DNA from: Haloactinopolyspora alba
GTDB taxonomy: Bacteria > Actinomycetota > Actinomycetes > Jiangellales > Jiangellaceae
NCBI RefSeq assembly: GCF_003014555.1
Contig: NZ_PYGE01000007.1
Coordinates: forward strand, 62,001-126,000
Length of the DNA: 64,000 nt
Reading direction: 5' to 3'
Below the pieces are notes generated by a model. It worked only from the letters and a program-made list of their open reading frames with translations, had not been told where the DNA came from and did no database searches. The translations under genes were made by a program, and so were the position numbers. Below, in pieces: positions 22,818-54,993 of this stretch; the stretch's first letter is position 1, and the number at the start of each line of letters is the position of its first letter.

Positions 22818-22952
22818 GCGGTCATCGTAGGCACGTCGCCGGGTTGGTGTCCCTGGCCGGAGCGGGGTGAATTCGGCCGGACCACGTGCACGCGCCGCCG
22901 GCAGGGATAGCCTGCGGTGTCCGATCAGCACATGGATGGAGTAGTGAACCGC

Positions 22953-23438
22953 ATGACCGCGCGCGACGAGCCCGGACGGGTCTTCGACGGCTACGCCCGC
23001 CTCTACGGTCCGATTGCCGTGGCGGCGCTGGGCCTGGTGTTCATGCCGATCTTCGACGACCAGCGGGTCGACCTGGCGGACGGCACGATAGACCGGAGCT
23101 TCGGCACGCTCTGGGAGACCGCGGCGAGAGTCAACGGCGGCCCTGCCGTGCTGGGCATCGTACTGGCCCTGGTCCTGATGACGCTGTGCCTGGTCGCGAC
23201 GTTCCGGCCGCGGTCGGCCGGGACACCGGCAGGCATCGCCGTCGTGTGCGTCCCGGTGATCGTCATGCTGATCACCAAGCCCAGAGCCGGTGACCCGGCT
23301 CCGGATCTCAGCGCCGCGGGCAGCGCCGCGCTGGCCGTCGTCGTGTTCACCGCCGTGCTGGCGACGACGCACGCGGCACACTACGCACGCTGGAGCCGCA
23401 CGCAGGCACCGTCGGCCGTGGCGTCGTCGCCCGCCTGA
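22953..23438 (+). CDS. Hypothetical four-helix membrane protein
   Basis: 161 aa from ATG at 22953; GTG 22944, ATG 22932 and GTG 22917 are in-frame alternatives. Four hydrophobic stretches are visible, for example GPIAVAALGLVFMPIF, VLGIVLALVLMTLCLVAT, GIAVVCVPVIVMLIT and ALAVVVFTAVLATTHAAHY, separated by short charged loops. No family motif was recognised. It stands alone, divergent from the M48 protease and convergent with the subtilisin gene, and is followed by the 77-bp repeat element at 23461. Confidence 0.65.
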   Translation: MTARDEPGRVFDGYARLYGPIAVAALGLVFMPIFDDQRVDLADGTIDRSFGTLWETAARVNGGPAVLGIVLALVLMTLCLVATFRPRSAGTPAGIAVVCVPVIVMLITKPRAGDPAPDLSAAGSAALAVVVFTAVLATTHAAHYARWSRTQAPSAVASSPA

Positions 23439-23460
23439 GGTGTCGAGTTCACTCCGGCCA

Positions 23461-23537
23461 TCACGAGGCTTCTGTACGCGTCACCAGGCTTGCAAGGGTG
23501 GTGACGCATGGAATTCCATGCGGGACGTGATCATTCG
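23461..23537 (-). repeat. 77-bp 3'-end element, copy A
   Basis: Copy A of an element also found at 54246-54322; 64 of 77 positions match by hand count, and the central 25 bp (23496-23520) are identical. It contains an 8-bp stem GCGTCACC / GGTGACGC around an inner palindrome CTTGCAAG, then the 16-bp palindrome GCATGGAATTCCATGC, then TGATCA. Read on the minus strand it starts four bases after the subtilisin stop codon. Probable role: terminator or 3' RNA structure. Confidence 0.8.
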
Positions 23538-23540
23538 TGC

Positions 23541-26500
23541 TCAGTTGATCATGATGGTGGTGAGGGTGGCGGTGCCTTCGTAGCCGATCGTGGCGAGGTA
23601 CGGGGTGCCGTCCCGCAGGCCGTCGTACTGGACGGTCACCGTGGACGGCTCACCTCGCCGGCCGGGGATCGGATCGGGCGTGACGGACATGGCGCCGCTG
23701 TGTCCGGACTCCGAGCCGACGGAGAACGTGCGCAGATCGAACTCGGCGGCGGACCCGTCCGCGCTTGAGAACATGTGCACCAGCACGCGGTACGTCCCGG
23801 GGCGCGGGGCGGTGAGGTCGACCCGTTCGCTGGTGGAGCCGGTCGCGCCCTCGACCGGCAGTTCCTTGCCGCCGGGACCGTAGAGGTACATGTCGTAGTC
23901 GGCGTGGGCGGCGCCGGAGACCAGGTCGAACCGGGCCGTCGTCGTGCCTTCGGGAACCTCGAACGTGACCACCTGCGACGAGGAGTTGCCCTCGGTGTCC
24001 GCCGGCTCGCCCGGTGTGAGCGAGCCCTCGGTGACCTCGCCCGGCGCGAGCCCGTGCGTGGTCAGGTCCACGTCGCCGTCGGAGCCGGGCACGACCTCGT
24101 AGCGGATCTCGCCGCTCGTGCCCGTTCCGGTGACCTCGGGTGGCGCGGCGACCGCGACCGGCCTGGCGACCACCGGGCTGCGGACGGTCGTGCCGCCGCC
24201 GCTCCAGGTCAGCTCCCCTTGGGCGTACGTGCCCAGCGGCGCCGTCTCGCGGTCGAGGACGATCTCGAACCGCTTCGTCTGGCCGGGTCTCGCGAAGTGG
24301 AGCACCGACGGGCGGACCCGGGCGTCGAAGCCGGGCACGTCGATCTCGGCGCGGTACAGCCCGGGTGTCACCGCGGTCACCTCGCGGGTGATCACCTGAC
24401 GCCCGGCGAGCGCGCCCACCGCGACCGACGGCTGGTTCAGGTTCGACGGGTCGATCGGCTCGACGCCGTCGACACCGAGGTTCTCGCCGGTTCCTTCGAG
24501 GAACGACAGCCAGTCGTCCGGCCCGGCCTCGTAGACCAGCCCGGGGTCGAGGAACCGAGTGGGGTCGACGTTGCCGGCGCCGCGGCCGAACCGGTCCGCG
24601 TCGTTCTCGCCCTCCGTGGTCTTCACCTCGGAGGCGGTGGTCATGAGCGCGGACTTGACGGCCATCGCGGACCACTCGGGCCGCTCGGCACGCATCACGG
24701 CGGCGAGCCCGGCGACGTGCGGCGCGGCCATGGACGTGCCGGACAGGAAGTCGAAGTCGTTGCCGTTGTGCGGACCCGGAGCGACCGCGGCGAGCACGTC
24801 GACCCCCGGCGCGGCGACGTCCGGCTTGAGCACGTCACCGCCGTTCGCCTCCGCCGGGCCGCGGGAGGAGAACCCGGCGACGACGGGCAACGGCGTCGGC
24901 GGCAGGTCGGTCCGGTCACCAGGCAGCAGTGCGGCGGTCGCGTCCGGCCGCGACGTCGCGTAGGAGCGGATCGCGTCCGCGTCGCCCGCCGGCACGTGCG
25001 TCGTCGGGATGGTGTGCAGGTCGGCGTTGAGGCTGTCGGCCGGGTCCGTGTTGCCGAGCACCGTGCCCACTCCGCCGGCCCGCGCGACCTCGGCGGACTT
25101 GTCCACCCGGGGGTACTCGCCCCGGTCGCACAGCACCACGGCGGGCGCGGCCTCGGCGACCGCGGTCGCGTCCAGGGAATCGGGGGCGCACAGTGCGGCG
25201 TCGGCGGCGTCGACGCCCTGGGCGGGGATGTCGCCGGCGTAGAGCAGCCGCGAGCGTTCCGGCACCCCGGTGTCGTCGATCATGGCACCGCGGAAGCGCC
25301 GACCGTCGCCGAGTTCGACGGTGCCTTCGTAGCGCACGTGGGTGCTGGCGGCGACCGAGGTCAGCCACGGGCTGTTGTGCGCGACGGTGGACGGCTCCGG
25401 CCCACTGTTGCCCGCCGAGGCGGCCACGAAGACGTTCGCCGACGCCGCGGACAGGAACGCCAGCTCGACCGGGTCCATCACGGTGTCGGTCGCACCGGAG
25501 ATCGAGTAGTTGATGACGTCGACGCCGTCCAGCACCGCCTGTTCGATCGCCGCGACCGAGTCCGAAGGGTAGCAGCCGCCGGTGGCCGCGTCGTCGTCCT
25601 GCCAGCAGACCTTGTAGGCGGCGATCTTCGCGCCCGGAGCCATGCCGGACCCGGAGCCGAACGAGCGGCCGTCGACACTCATCTCGACGTGGTGGTTGCC
25701 GGCGGCCGTCGCGGCGGTGTGGGTGCCGTGCCCGTCGCCGTCGCGGGCCGAGATCTGCTCGTGCTCACCGCGGTGCTCGGGGGCGACGTTAGTGACGAAG
25801 CCGTCCTCGAAGTAGCGCGCGGAGATCAGCTTGTCGTTGCACAGATCGGGGGTCCAGCCCTCGCCGGGCCGGCACGCGCCGGTGAACGTGTCGCCGTCCG
25901 CCTTGAGCATCGCCGTGCCGGTCTCGGACGTCCGGTACGGGCGGCCGACCTCACCGGTGCTGCCGTCGGGCAGCTCGTCGCCGGCGAACGACGGGTTCTC
26001 CGGCCAGATCCCGGTGTCGATGACACCGACGACGGTCCCGTGCCCGGCCCGGTCGCTGCCGCCGACGGACTCCCACAGGCCGTCGTCGCCGGTGAGTCCG
26101 AGGAACTCCGGCGAGTGCACGGTGTCGACCTTCCGCGGGACGTCCGCGACGACGGCGCGCACGCCGGGGGAGGCGCGCAACGTGCGGACCTGTTCGGCGC
26201 TGAGCCTGGCGGAGAAACCGTTGAGGGCGACGGTGTAGCGGTGCACCGGGCGGACCCCGACGTCGCGGGCGAGCGTGAGCTGACGGTCGCGCAGGTGTGC
26301 GCGGTAGTCGCGCACGGCCGCGGAGCTCGGGCGCAGCCGCTCACCCGCGGCGGGCGCGGTGCGGGCGAGCCCGGACACGCCGCCGCGGTAGCTCGCCGCG
26401 GGCTGCCCCTCGAGGACGACGATGTAGCCGCCCGCGTCGGCCCGCTGCCCATCGATCGGCTGCGCGTCGATCGGGTGCGCGTCGATCGGGTGCGCGTCGA

Positions 26501-26636
26501 TCGGGCCGGACGGCGCCTTCGGGGCCGTGGGCACCGCGAACGCGACACCTCCCGCCGTCGCCGCCGCGAGAGATGCGGCGGCCGCTGCCGAGAGCAGCCT
26601 GGCGCGGCCACGACGCGGGGTGCTGACCATCGTCAC
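23541..26636 (-). CDS. Secreted subtilisin-like serine protease (S8) with I9, PA, Fn3-like and PPC domains
   Basis: 1031 aa from GTG at 26636, seven bases after AGAGGA; ATG at 26630 is the alternative. Domains in order: signal peptide (about 1-36), a PIDAH/PIDAQ repeat spacer (45-63), I9 propeptide inhibitor (70-172), then the S8 domain with Asp207 (VIDTGIWP), His303 (GHGTH) and Ser635 (GTSMAAPH). A PA insert lies between (about 450-570). After the catalytic domain come a fibronectin-like Fn3_6 region (SVAVGALAGRQVITREV) and a PPC-like beta domain (YDMYLYGPGGKE). It should be an extracellular protease that matures by cutting off its propeptide. The architecture resembles large actinomycete and plant subtilases. 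Confidence 0.93.
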   Translation of the reverse strand: MTMVSTPRRGRARLLSAAAAASLAAATAGGVAFAVPTAPKAPSGPIDAHPIDAHPIDAQPIDGQRADAGGYIVVLEGQPAASYRGGVSGLARTAPAAGERLRPSSAAVRDYRAHLRDRQLTLARDVGVRPVHRYTVALNGFSARLSAEQVRTLRASPGVRAVVADVPRKVDTVHSPEFLGLTGDDGLWESVGGSDRAGHGTVVGVIDTGIWPENPSFAGDELPDGSTGEVGRPYRTSETGTAMLKADGDTFTGACRPGEGWTPDLCNDKLISARYFEDGFVTNVAPEHRGEHEQISARDGDGHGTHTAATAAGNHHVEMSVDGRSFGSGSGMAPGAKIAAYKVCWQDDDAATGGCYPSDSVAAIEQAVLDGVDVINYSISGATDTVMDPVELAFLSAASANVFVAASAGNSGPEPSTVAHNSPWLTSVAASTHVRYEGTVELGDGRRFRGAMIDDTGVPERSRLLYAGDIPAQGVDAADAALCAPDSLDATAVAEAAPAVVLCDRGEYPRVDKSAEVARAGGVGTVLGNTDPADSLNADLHTIPTTHVPAGDADAIRSYATSRPDATAALLPGDRTDLPPTPLPVVAGFSSRGPAEANGGDVLKPDVAAPGVDVLAAVAPGPHNGNDFDFLSGTSMAAPHVAGLAAVMRAERPEWSAMAVKSALMTTASEVKTTEGENDADRFGRGAGNVDPTRFLDPGLVYEAGPDDWLSFLEGTGENLGVDGVEPIDPSNLNQPSVAVGALAGRQVITREVTAVTPGLYRAEIDVPGFDARVRPSVLHFARPGQTKRFEIVLDRETAPLGTYAQGELTWSGGGTTVRSPVVARPVAVAAPPEVTGTGTSGEIRYEVVPGSDGDVDLTTHGLAPGEVTEGSLTPGEPADTEGNSSSQVVTFEVPEGTTTARFDLVSGAAHADYDMYLYGPGGKELPVEGATGSTSERVDLTAPRPGTYRVLVHMFSSADGSAAEFDLRTFSVGSESGHSGAMSVTPDPIPGRRGEPSTVTVQYDGLRDGTPYLATIGYEGTATLTTIMIN
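26448..26504 (-). repeat. 15-bp in-frame tandem repeat in the subtilisin pro-region
   Basis: Four consecutive units encode PIDAH, PIDAH, PIDAQ and PIDG (residues 45-63). The DNA unit is about GTGCGCGTCGATCGG. Because the unit is 15 bp, slippage would change length without breaking the frame. It lies between the signal peptide and the I9 propeptide. Confidence 0.8.
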
Positions 26637-51930: not shown

Positions 51931-51940
51931 CGCGGTCTCG

Positions 51941-52104
51941 TCACCTGATCGTCGTTTGGTCACCTGATCTTCCCGGAAGTCGCGATCAGGTGACCCGGAA
52001 GCGGTCCGGCAGCGGTCAACTGGCACCTGATCATGTCCGCAATGTGGACTGCGAACGATCAGGTGCCAGAGCAGCGTTCAGGCGGCGAGATCTGTCACCT
52101 GATC
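51941..52104. repeat. Cluster of six CACCTGATC repeats in both orientations between metK and priA
   Basis: CACCTGATC appears at 51942, 51961, 52024 and 52096, and its reverse complement GATCAGGTG at 51984 and 52057. Two pairs form 12-bp-arm hairpins: GGTCACCTGATC 51958-51969 with 51984-51995, and TGGCACCTGATC 52021-52032 with 52057-52068. It fills the 233-bp gap. It may be a terminator array, a regulatory site or a dispersed repeat. Confidence 0.8.
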
Positions 52105-52163
52105 CACAACGGCAAGGCCCGCCAGGCGGACGGGCAGTCGCAGCCGTGCGGTAGAAACGCCCT

Positions 52164-54176
52164 GTGAGCGGAGCGGAGCCCGAACAGCCGGCACTGATGG
52201 CGGCGCCCGGACGCCGGCGTACCCGTTCCCGCACCCCTGAACCACTGGCCGACGAGCTGCCGGTCGCACGGGTGCTGGTGGACGTCCCGCTGCCGCACCT
52301 GGACCGGCCGTTCGACTACGTCGTGCCGAGTTCGATGGCCGACGACGCCGTGCCCGGCGCCCGCGTGGCCGTACGGTTCGCCGGCGCCGACCACAACGGA
52401 TTCGTGCTGGAACGCGTCGCGGAAAGCGAGCACGAGGGAAGCCTCGCCCGACTGCGCCGGGTCGTGTCGAGCGAGCCGGTTCTGACCCCGGAGGTGGCCC
52501 GGCTGGCACGGACGGTCGCCGACCGCTACGCGGGGACCGTGGCCGACGTCCTGCGCCTCGCGGTGCCGCCACGGCACGCCACCACCGAGCGTCGCCCGTC
52601 GCCCGCCCGCCCCGCCCCGCCCGAAGCGCCGCAGGCGGGCGGATGGAGCGGTCATGCCGGCGGGCAGGCGATGCTGGACGCGCTCGCCGCCGGGAAGGCG
52701 CCCCGGGCCGTCTGGAACCCGCCGCCGGGCGGCGACTGGCCGGATCTGACCGCGCGTGCCGTGGCGGCCACGCTCGCGGGCGGCCGCGGCGCGCTGGTCG
52801 TCGTTCCGGACGGACGTGACGCGGCGCGCGTGTCCGCTGCGCTGACCGCGCTGATCGGCGATGGCCACCACGTCGTGCTCGAGGCTGACGCCGGCCCGGC
52901 GAAGCGCTACCGCCGGTGGCTGGCGGCACTGCGAGGGTCGGCCGGCGCGGTCGTGGGGACGCGGTCGGCGGCGTTCGCGCCGGTGCGCGACCTCGGCCTG
53001 GTGTGCGTGTGGGACGACGGCGACGACCTGCACGCCGAGCCACGCGCGCCGTACCCGCACACCCGTGAGGTGCTGTTGCTGCGCGCCCACGACACCGGCG
53101 CCGCGGCACTGGTCGGCGGGTTCGCTCGCACGGCCGAGGCCGAGCTGCTGCTCACCACCGGTTGGGCACGCCCGCTCACTGCCGACCGCGCCGGCGTCCG
53201 CCGGTCGTCGCCGGTCGTGCGTACGGTGGGCGACGACTACGAACAGGCCCGCGACGAGGCCGCGCGCAGCGCCCGGCTGCCGTCCATGGCATGGCGCACC
53301 GTGCGCGACGGGCTGGCCAACGGCCCGGTGCTGGTCCAGGTGCCGCGGTCGGGATATCTGCCCGGCGTGGCCTGCGGCCGGTGCCGGGCGGCGGCGCGGT
53401 GCACCGCCTGCGCCGGTCCGCTGCGGCTCGGCCGCGCCGACGAGCCACCTCGTTGCGGGTGGTGCGCCACCGCGTACCCGTCGTGGCGCTGCCCGGAGTG
53501 CGGGCACACGACGCTGCGCGCCACGTCGGTGGGCGTCGGGCGCACGGCCGAGGAGCTGGGCCGCGTGTTCACCGGCACGCCGGTCGTGGTGTCGCGGGGT
53601 GACGGTGTGCGTGACGAGGTCGCGGCCGAGCCGGCGCTGGTGGTGGCGACACCTGGGGCGGAACCGCTCGCCGAGGGTGGTTACGCCGCGGCATTGCTTC
53701 TGGACGGGACGTCGATGCTGACCCGCCCGAGCCTGCGGGCGGCCGAGGAGGCGCTGCGGCGCTGGATGGGGGCGGTGGTGCTGGTGCGACCGGGACCGGA
53801 CGGCGGCAACGTCGTCGTCGTGACCGATCCGTCGGCGCCGGCGGTCCAGGCGCTGGTGCGGTGGGACCCGGCCGGCTTCGCGGGGCGCGAGCTGGCCGAG
53901 CGGGCGGAGTTGCACCTGCCGCCGGCCGCGCGGGTGGCCGAGCTCACCGGAGCGGACGCGGACGTCACGGACCTGCTGGACCAGGTCGAGGTGCCCGAGG
54001 CCGCCGAGACGCTGGGGCCGGCGCCGACCGACGACGGCGTGCGCGTCGTCATCCGGGTGCCGCGCGGCTCGGGGACGGCGTTGGCGGCGGCACTGCGCGC
54101 GGCGGCCGGGGTGCGTTCGGCACGGCGGTCCGGCGGTCCGGTGCGGGTCCGGATCGACCCCGTCGACCTCGGCTGA
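52164..54176 (+). CDS. priA: Probable primosomal protein N' (PriA-like), helicase motifs missing
   Basis: 670 aa from GTG at 52164. The N-terminal DNA-binding domain has VARVLVDVPLPHLDRPFDYVVPS (about 34-56). The zinc-binding region has eight cysteines (CGRCRAAARCTAC ... CGWC ... CPECG, about residues 410-455). The expected Walker A (GxTGSGKT) is absent, the Walker B box is CVWDDGDD instead of a DEEH type, and the protein is shorter than E. coli PriA. This loss of ATPase motifs is known for actinobacterial PriA-like proteins, so it probably binds forks without unwinding them. fmt, the usual next gene, is missing here. Confidence 0.9.
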   Translation: MSGAEPEQPALMAAPGRRRTRSRTPEPLADELPVARVLVDVPLPHLDRPFDYVVPSSMADDAVPGARVAVRFAGADHNGFVLERVAESEHEGSLARLRRVVSSEPVLTPEVARLARTVADRYAGTVADVLRLAVPPRHATTERRPSPARPAPPEAPQAGGWSGHAGGQAMLDALAAGKAPRAVWNPPPGGDWPDLTARAVAATLAGGRGALVVVPDGRDAARVSAALTALIGDGHHVVLEADAGPAKRYRRWLAALRGSAGAVVGTRSAAFAPVRDLGLVCVWDDGDDLHAEPRAPYPHTREVLLLRAHDTGAAALVGGFARTAEAELLLTTGWARPLTADRAGVRRSSPVVRTVGDDYEQARDEAARSARLPSMAWRTVRDGLANGPVLVQVPRSGYLPGVACGRCRAAARCTACAGPLRLGRADEPPRCGWCATAYPSWRCPECGHTTLRATSVGVGRTAEELGRVFTGTPVVVSRGDGVRDEVAAEPALVVATPGAEPLAEGGYAAALLLDGTSMLTRPSLRAAEEALRRWMGAVVLVRPGPDGGNVVVVTDPSAPAVQALVRWDPAGFAGRELAERAELHLPPAARVAELTGADADVTDLLDQVEVPEAAETLGPAPTDDGVRVVIRVPRGSGTALAAALRAAAGVRSARRSGGPVRVRIDPVDLG

Positions 54177-54245
54177 CGGCGTCGCGGCTGCCGCGCGCAG
54201 TGCCGGGGGCGTGCCGGGGCGCGGCGGGGCGCGGGGCGTGAGCCG

Positions 54246-54322
54246 TCACCAGGATCGTGCAGGCATCACCAGGCCTGCAGGGGTGGTGACGCATGGAATT
54301 CCATGGTGAACGTGATCATTCC
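54246..54322 (-). repeat. 77-bp 3'-end element, copy B
   Basis: Second copy of the element at 23461-23537, same orientation relative to its minus-strand neighbour. The stop codon of the ATPase gene (54316-54318) lies inside its TGATCA. The inner palindrome here is CCTGCAGG instead of CTTGCAAG, a paired change, and the outer stem has one substitution that stays a G-U pair only in the minus-strand transcript. Confidence 0.8.
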
Positions 54323-54993
54323 ACCAGGGAGCGGTAGTGGGCGACGGCGTCGGGCGGGGGACCGTCGTGGGCGATGCGTCCCTGGTCGAACACCAGCACC
54401 CGGTCCATGCGCTGGACTGCCTCGAGGTCGTGTGTGACGAGGATCACCCGCTGCGAGATGCGGGACAGCAGGTCGAGGACCCGGCGCGTGTTGCGCAGGT
54501 CCAGCAGGGTGGTGGGCTCGTCGCACACCAGGACCTTCGGCTCGGTGACCAGCACCGAACACAGCGCCAGCAGCTGCTTCTGGCCCCCGGACAGCAGATG
54601 CGCCGGGTGGTCGCGGTGCGAGGACAGGCCGAAGTCGGACAGCGCTTCGTCCACGACTTGCCGCGTGTCCGGCTTGCTCAGCCGCTGCGGGCGTAACCCG
54701 AACGCGACGTCCTCGGCCACGGTGGGCATGACGATCTGCGCATCCGGGTCGGTGAAGACGAATCCGACCCGTCGGCGGACTTCCGCGCCGTCGGAACGCG
54801 TGTCGAGCCCGTCGACCCGGACCGAGCCGTGCTGTGGCACGACGAGGCCGTTGAGCAGGCGTGCGAACGTCGACTTGCCGGAGCCGTTGGCGCCGATGAC
54901 GCCGACGCGGTGTTCGGTGAGGGTGACGTCGACGTCGCGCAGGACCGTCCGGGACTCGAAGCTGTGCCGGACACCGCACACCTCGATCGTCAT
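54316..54993 (-). CDS. Energy-coupling factor type ABC ATPase (BioM/CbiO-like), orphan
   Basis: 225 aa from ATG at 54993 (MTIEVCGVRHSFESRTVL). Walker A GANGSGKSTFARLLNG, Q-loop FTDPDAQIVMPTVAEDVAFG, signature LSGGQKQLLALCSVL, Walker B VLVCDEPTTLLD and H-loop VTHDLEAV. The Q-loop region and the short length mark ATPases of ECF importers for biotin, cobalt or other vitamins. In related genomes it is accompanied by EcfT (BioN) and BioY; none is encoded here, so partners must be elsewhere or lost. The gene ends inside the 77-bp repeat element. Confidence 0.85.
   Translation of the reverse strand: MTIEVCGVRHSFESRTVLRDVDVTLTEHRVGVIGANGSGKSTFARLLNGLVVPQHGSVRVDGLDTRSDGAEVRRRVGFVFTDPDAQIVMPTVAEDVAFGLRPQRLSKPDTRQVVDEALSDFGLSSHRDHPAHLLSGGQKQLLALCSVLVTEPKVLVCDEPTTLLDLRNTRRVLDLLSRISQRVILVTHDLEAVQRMDRVLVFDQGRIAHDGPPPDAVAHYRSLVE

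Follow-up and report, generated by a model that had tools for sequence, protein, structure and literature searches.

The window, as we refer to the whole stretch of 64,000 nucleotides analysed here, contains two copies of a 77-bp sequence, each found at the end of a gene, and these raise the question of whether the sequence is a structured RNA that acts at mRNA ends or a mobile repeat that settles after genes. Both possibilities had been proposed in a first-pass annotation of the window. That annotation placed the copies, which we call A and B, at 23461-23537 and 54246-54322, and correctly described them as identical at 64 of 77 positions, including an uninterrupted run of 25 bases. When the whole window was compared, the runner-up 77-mer matched at 36 positions when read on the same strand and at 41 when read on the opposite one. 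The true bounds of the element are shifted by 2 bp from those coordinates (Table 1), and its sense reading, which is the minus strand in the window, starts with AATGA and finishes with GATG or GACG. A minus-strand gene lies directly upstream of each copy, as had been noted: copy A is 5 bp past the stop codon of a subtilase gene, and the TGA stop codon of an ABC transporter ATPase gene is inside copy B. Each copy is also flanked by convergent genes, a point absent from the annotation.

Along its sense strand, the element consists of AATGATCACGT..., hairpin 1, hairpin 2 (CACCA-N10-CCTSGTG) and a finishing CCTSGTGAYG motif. The terminus on the gene side, RRAATGAYCACGT, is conserved across genera, and position -1 is R in 46 of 47 copies. 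The CCTSGTGAYG motif occurs at sense positions 47 and 67, with the same degenerate positions in both occurrences, and its RTCAC core is found inverted at positions 4 and 31. In most copies of the window's own genome the terminus is present at one end only. Where it is present at both ends, the 77-bp unit becomes a symmetric form of 86-88 bp with terminal inverted repeats; this form is found in Phytoactinopolyspora alkaliphila, whose copies are near-perfect palindromes, and among some copies in a metagenome-assembled genome (MAG) and in J. asiatica. In the MAG Co-bin20 (locus L202, approximately 110-200), a symmetric 86-bp element is exactly central in a 24-bp inverted repeat, CGCTGACCCTGTCTCACCCTGCTG/CAGCAGGGTGAGACAGGGTCAGCG.

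Table 1. Coordinates of the element, its parts, its neighbours and other repeats (window coordinates unless a contig, C, of the own genome, G000, is given).
Feature	Coordinates	Strand	Remark
Copy A, 77-bp element	23459..23535	-	sense = minus strand, AATGA to GATG
Copy B, 77-bp element	54244..54320	-	sense = minus strand
Subtilase gene, 3' end toward copy A	23541..26534	-	Pfam: Peptidase_S8, I9, PA
ABC transporter ATPase gene, stop codon within copy B	54316..54993	-	Pfam scan
Convergent neighbour of copy A, 164 aa, without Pfam match	22944..23438	+	Pfam scan
Convergent neighbour of copy B, PriA-like (PriA_3primeBD)	52164..54176	+	Pfam scan
Conserved gene-side terminus RRAATGATCACGT, copy A	23525..23537	-	alignment across genera
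Conserved gene-side terminus, copy B	54310..54322	-	contains the ABC gene's stop codon, TGA at 54316-54318
Hairpin 1, copy A: CATGG-AATT-CCATG	23507..23520	-	in own and J. asiatica consensus, not in MAG
Hairpin 1, copy B	54292..54305	-	
Hairpin 2, copy A: CGTCACCA ... TGGTGACG (CACCA-N10-CCTSGTG)	23479..23506	-	exceeds all 500 within-genome shuffles; spacing rigid in all genera
Hairpin 2, copy B	54264..54291	-	
Far-end motif CCTSGTGAYG, copy A	23459..23468	-	the motif's second occurrence; spacing to the first, 20 bp
Far-end motif CCTSGTGAYG, copy B	54244..54253	-	
Second repeat family, window	51940-52105		
Second repeat family, G000	C1 58437-58557; C1 252132-252297; C2 27070-27236; C2 148013-148100; C2 160644-160798; C5 188665-188838; and others		
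Outward-facing pairs of the element, G000	C2:51284/52454; C2:344185/345075; C7:55841/56059; C7:211451/212376; C6:97758/98346		

A genome-wide search revealed that A and B are members of a large family. With up to three mismatches allowed, the 21-bp core had 161 matches in the own genome (a 5.54-Mb draft with approximately 70% G+C in the contigs read), compared to 0 for a reversed control, and the family comprises about 160 copies in this Jiangellaceae genome. Five contigs start approximately 100 bp before a copy (C10:92-145, C27:92-145, C19:99-116, C24:99-116 and C26:105-122), which places assembly breaks at the repeats and makes the copy count a lower bound. A broader pattern with rigid spacing, which counts each symmetric copy twice, had 115 matches in the own genome, 89 in its sole congener (G001), 212 in a complete Jiangella genome (G013), 282 in J. 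asiatica, 133 in G014 (P. alkaliphila, as judged by its sequences) and few in other species. By this pattern, matches per Jiangellaceae genome range from 0 to 282; 16 of the 22 genomes carry the element and six have none, and the pattern matched in 0 of 372 genomes of the class outside the family. The carriers are Jiangella species, P. alkaliphila and Jiangellaceae MAGs. A literature search on Jiangella repeats found nothing.

Other repeats were noticed along the way. A second composite palindromic family, built of GATCAGGTGAC...GTCACCTGATC units, occupies approximately 160-250 bp at each of about 15 places in 1.58 Mb, and copies of it are also present in G013. Separately, a stretch of approximately 960 bp without a called gene occurs at four places in the Jiangella genome G007 (L292 1214-2175, L293, L294 and L295; 88-94% identity) and contains many nested inverted repeats together with one copy of the 77-nt element.

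To describe placement we used 47 elements in 1.585 Mb of the own genome (29% of its 5.54 Mb), with genes predicted by a purpose-written codon-usage caller whose start positions are approximate. Neighbouring genes were named from a reading of their sequences, except for the four window genes scanned with Pfam, and loci in relatives were obtained through pattern searches. The conserved terminus points toward a gene's 3' end in 39 of the 47 elements, and in 37 it lies between -5 and +26 bp from the stop codon, compared to 6.6% expected for uniform intergenic placement (p ~5e-35). Random placement relative to gene ends, which the first-pass annotation had said would speak against its reading, is thus clearly excluded. 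The distance is exactly -5 in 13 of 47 cases, in which the TGA of AATGA is the gene's stop codon. Among the surveyed copies, no gene reads into the element in its other two frames, though these are open for approximately 17 to 25 codons. The far end exhibits no orientation preference (27 toward a 3' end, 20 toward a 5' end). Between tandem genes, the terminus is directed at the 3' end of the upstream gene in 17 cases versus 5 (p=0.017), and convergent gaps hold 22 of the 47 elements, although they make up 91 of the 649 gaps of at least 80 bp (14%, p=7e-8). The same docking with a -5 peak is observed in G013, where 11 of 12 termini are docked, in P. alkaliphila, where 17 of 18 element ends point toward gene 3' ends, and in MAG Co-bin20, and like placement recurs in other carriers; docking is looser in J. 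asiatica. Some copies within tandem pairs are a few bp before the next start, for example at dnaJ-like/rsmE-like genes.

Copies less than 1.3 kb apart always have their conserved ends outward, and five such pairs were seen versus approximately two expected (Table 1). Two of the outward-facing pairs have empty sites in G001, and adjacent copies are only weakly more alike (p=0.09). We considered that such pairs might carry composite cargo, and rejected this, as the pairs enclose ordinary genes (oxidoreductase, inositol-monophosphatase-like and rsmE-like).

Comparisons between genomes bear on how the copies arose. The identity of copies within a genome is 0.84 in the own genome and 0.76 to 0.95 in other genomes, compared to 0.61-0.70 between genomes. 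Three sites are filled in both the own genome and G001, and the copies at these orthologous sites are 0.65-0.73 identical, while the own copies there are 0.83 to 0.87 identical to their own paralogues. Sense position 8 is diagnostic, with C throughout the 41 own copies and T throughout the 6 surveyed in G001. Of 10 tested sites, about 7 are empty in G001, among them the site of copy B; G001 is a congener too diverged for base-exact insertion boundaries, and these empty sites are compatible with gain or loss. In G001 the ortholog of copy B's ABC gene lacks the element, and its reading frame extends roughly one codon further. Since paralogues are more alike than copies at orthologous sites, and sites are found empty, copies are gained, lost or overwritten within lineages, which is how a proliferating, REP/MITE-like repeat behaves. 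The sites filled in both genomes may be old and homogenised, or may have been hit twice.

The annotation's case for an RNA fared less well. For the sense strand of copy A, the predicted fold is a three-way junction (-27.4 kcal/mol, z -3.4), with a comparably good fold on the opposite strand, and copy B has its better fold on the opposite strand; Rfam covariance models, applied at their gathering scores, matched nothing in the window. The sequence differences between A and B had been listed correctly, and the change of CTTGCAAG to CCTGCAGG had been taken as compensatory. However, the pair concerned, sense 40-45, is unpaired in 17 of 41 own copies (GG 12, TG 12, CG 10, CA 4, TA 2, CC 1), as shuffling predicts: 24 copies are paired versus 26.4 expected (p=0.99). 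The claim fails: covariation is beyond the reach of a two-copy comparison, and the wider family lacks it for these pairs. It had further been argued that an outer-stem difference, at pair 30-55, keeps a G-U pair only on the transcribed strand. This difference is part of the C/T alternation in the CCTSGTGAYG motif; at the far-end motif the same alternation gives A-C mismatches in the same strand, and we found no consistent G-U bias favouring the transcribed strand. Covariation is thus absent for the pairs that the annotation had named, but hairpin 2 as a whole does covary, with pairing beyond 500 within-genome shuffles, a test in which the kinship of copies remains. Neither hairpin 1 nor the closing stem nor the inner loop pairs more than the shuffles do. 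There is support, then, for a conserved inverted repeat, and not for selection on the transcribed RNA strand in particular. Likewise, the proposed terminator or mRNA-stability role is not borne out: an intrinsic terminator is a G+C-rich hairpin followed by a U-tract, and the U-tract is absent at both window loci. A terminator role without a U-tract is possible, and the copies between tandem genes argue against strong termination.

The REP-like repeat that the annotation offered as its other proposal is supported by the inverted repeats, the fixed polarity and the REP-like behaviour of the family, and the closest known kind is the REP element, which likewise sits tight against the 3' ends of genes and provides stop codons. 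According to Di Nocera and colleagues (PMC3733652), GTAG and CGTC REPs between convergent genes mostly lie at distances below 20 bp from a gene's 3' end, GTAG termini often provide the stop codon TAG, and CGTC REPs, which occur mainly in alpha-Proteobacteria, have stems of 8-9 bp, loops of 4-5 nt and a CCA tail, with no dedicated transposase known; a text search of this survey found no mention of Actinobacteria. Like GTAG REPs and REPINs with their RAYT (TnpA-REP), the element is palindromic, extragenic and high in copy number, is located mainly in convergent or unidirectional gaps, no more than about 20 bp from the 3' end of a gene, and has a terminus that may serve as the stop codon. Unlike them, it has a consensus (AATGAYCACGTTCANCA...) without a GTAG foot, measures 77-88 bp with two hairpins rather than 20-40 bp, and provides TGA rather than TAG. 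Furthermore, the Y1 (RAYT) transposase, PF01797, was matched at E<=1 in 0 of 22 Jiangellaceae genomes, with the positive control matched in 10 of 14. With CGTC REPs the element has in common its 3'-end placement and that a dedicated transposase is not known, but its terminus and compound structure are different, and it lacks the CGTC combination of stem, loop and CCA tail. Given this REP-like placement and the differences from both classes, we conclude that the element works like a REP, outside both classes. MITEs are similar in being short and non-coding, in their lineage-specific bursts, and in the terminal inverted repeats of the symmetric form. On the other hand, the terminus is confined to one end in most own copies, and neither a clear target-site duplication, with only diverged empty sites to compare, nor, in the readable part of each genome, a parent IS was found.

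These observations together suggest that the element is probably a non-autonomous REP/MITE-like mobile repeat of Jiangellaceae. Its copies would have spread through a transposition-like machinery acting in trans. They may survive, or be directed, at sites where the reading frame stays intact, because the terminus brings a TGA and the remainder would be a tolerated 3' UTR hairpin; effects on mRNA 3' ends (stabilisation, weak termination, or a block to convergent read-through) would be secondary. DNA bearing a transposase and bounded by the terminus, as an autonomous parent would be, was absent from the readable part of each genome, and a search for Y2 (IS91-type) transposases had no match, but its positive control also matched nowhere. 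The flanks exhibit no clear target-site duplication, with the nearest empty sites being those of the diverged congener only. We also rejected insertion into the loops of pre-existing terminator hairpins, since flank complementarity is not above that of shuffles, with the exception of a borderline MAG set that is largely driven by one locus. A more specific version, in which an actinobacterial repeat is sent to stop codons in fixed orientation by non-RAYT machinery, with its terminus as the stop codon and gene ends rewritten in concert in each species, appears rather doubtful as a whole.

The tight docking could reflect selection for function instead of insertion preference. The element might be a genome-wide 3'-end signal, perhaps one that began as a mobile element, which acts as a bidirectional terminator or stabilises mRNA ends, is kept by selection and co-evolves with a binding protein. 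The tight polarity toward stop codons in several genera, the near-perfect palindromes of P. alkaliphila with their ends toward gene 3' ends, the covariation of hairpin 2 within genomes, the genome-diagnostic bases such as sense position 8, and the three sites common to the own genome and G001 would all fit such a signal. We nonetheless consider it unlikely, as the U-tract is absent, no consistent G-U bias marks the transcribed strand, and six family genomes have no copies; moreover, a strong terminator just before the next start in the dnaJ-like/rsmE-like tandem pairs would silence the next gene.

The absence from six genomes similarly weakens the idea that a protein organising the nucleoid or chromosome binds the element as double-stranded DNA, with promoter avoidance accounting for the position at gene ends. 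The motif, which reads CRTCACSAGG on the other strand and is repeated 20 bp apart in direct and inverted arrangement, is what a binding site might look like. Promoter avoidance, however, gives no reason to expect the polarity, a distance of at most 26 bp from the stop codon, or the 13 cases in which the element provides the stop codon in frame, and we regard this explanation as quite improbable. The AATGA start, which overlaps a stop and a start codon, could also suggest a short coupled ORF, as most copies keep open a frame of 17 codons (MITF...W*), whose length is maintained by the rigid spacing of the element. TAG variants, however, close it, and no more than roughly one copy in three overlaps a stop. 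By codon position, variation peaks at position 2 in each of the three genomes tested and is smallest at position 3 in two, unlike in coding sequence. This variability ruled out the ORF, which we hold to be scarcely credible.

REP repeats are well described in Proteobacteria. The Jiangellaceae family, which we thus read as probably mobile, offers a clean REP-like case without RAYT, including a complete genome with approximately 200 matches (G013), a pair of congeners that differ in which sites are filled, and copy-free species. With it, one can test directly whether insertion machinery delivers such repeats to gene ends or selection retains them, and which activity mobilises REP-like DNA in genomes that lack a Y1 transposase.
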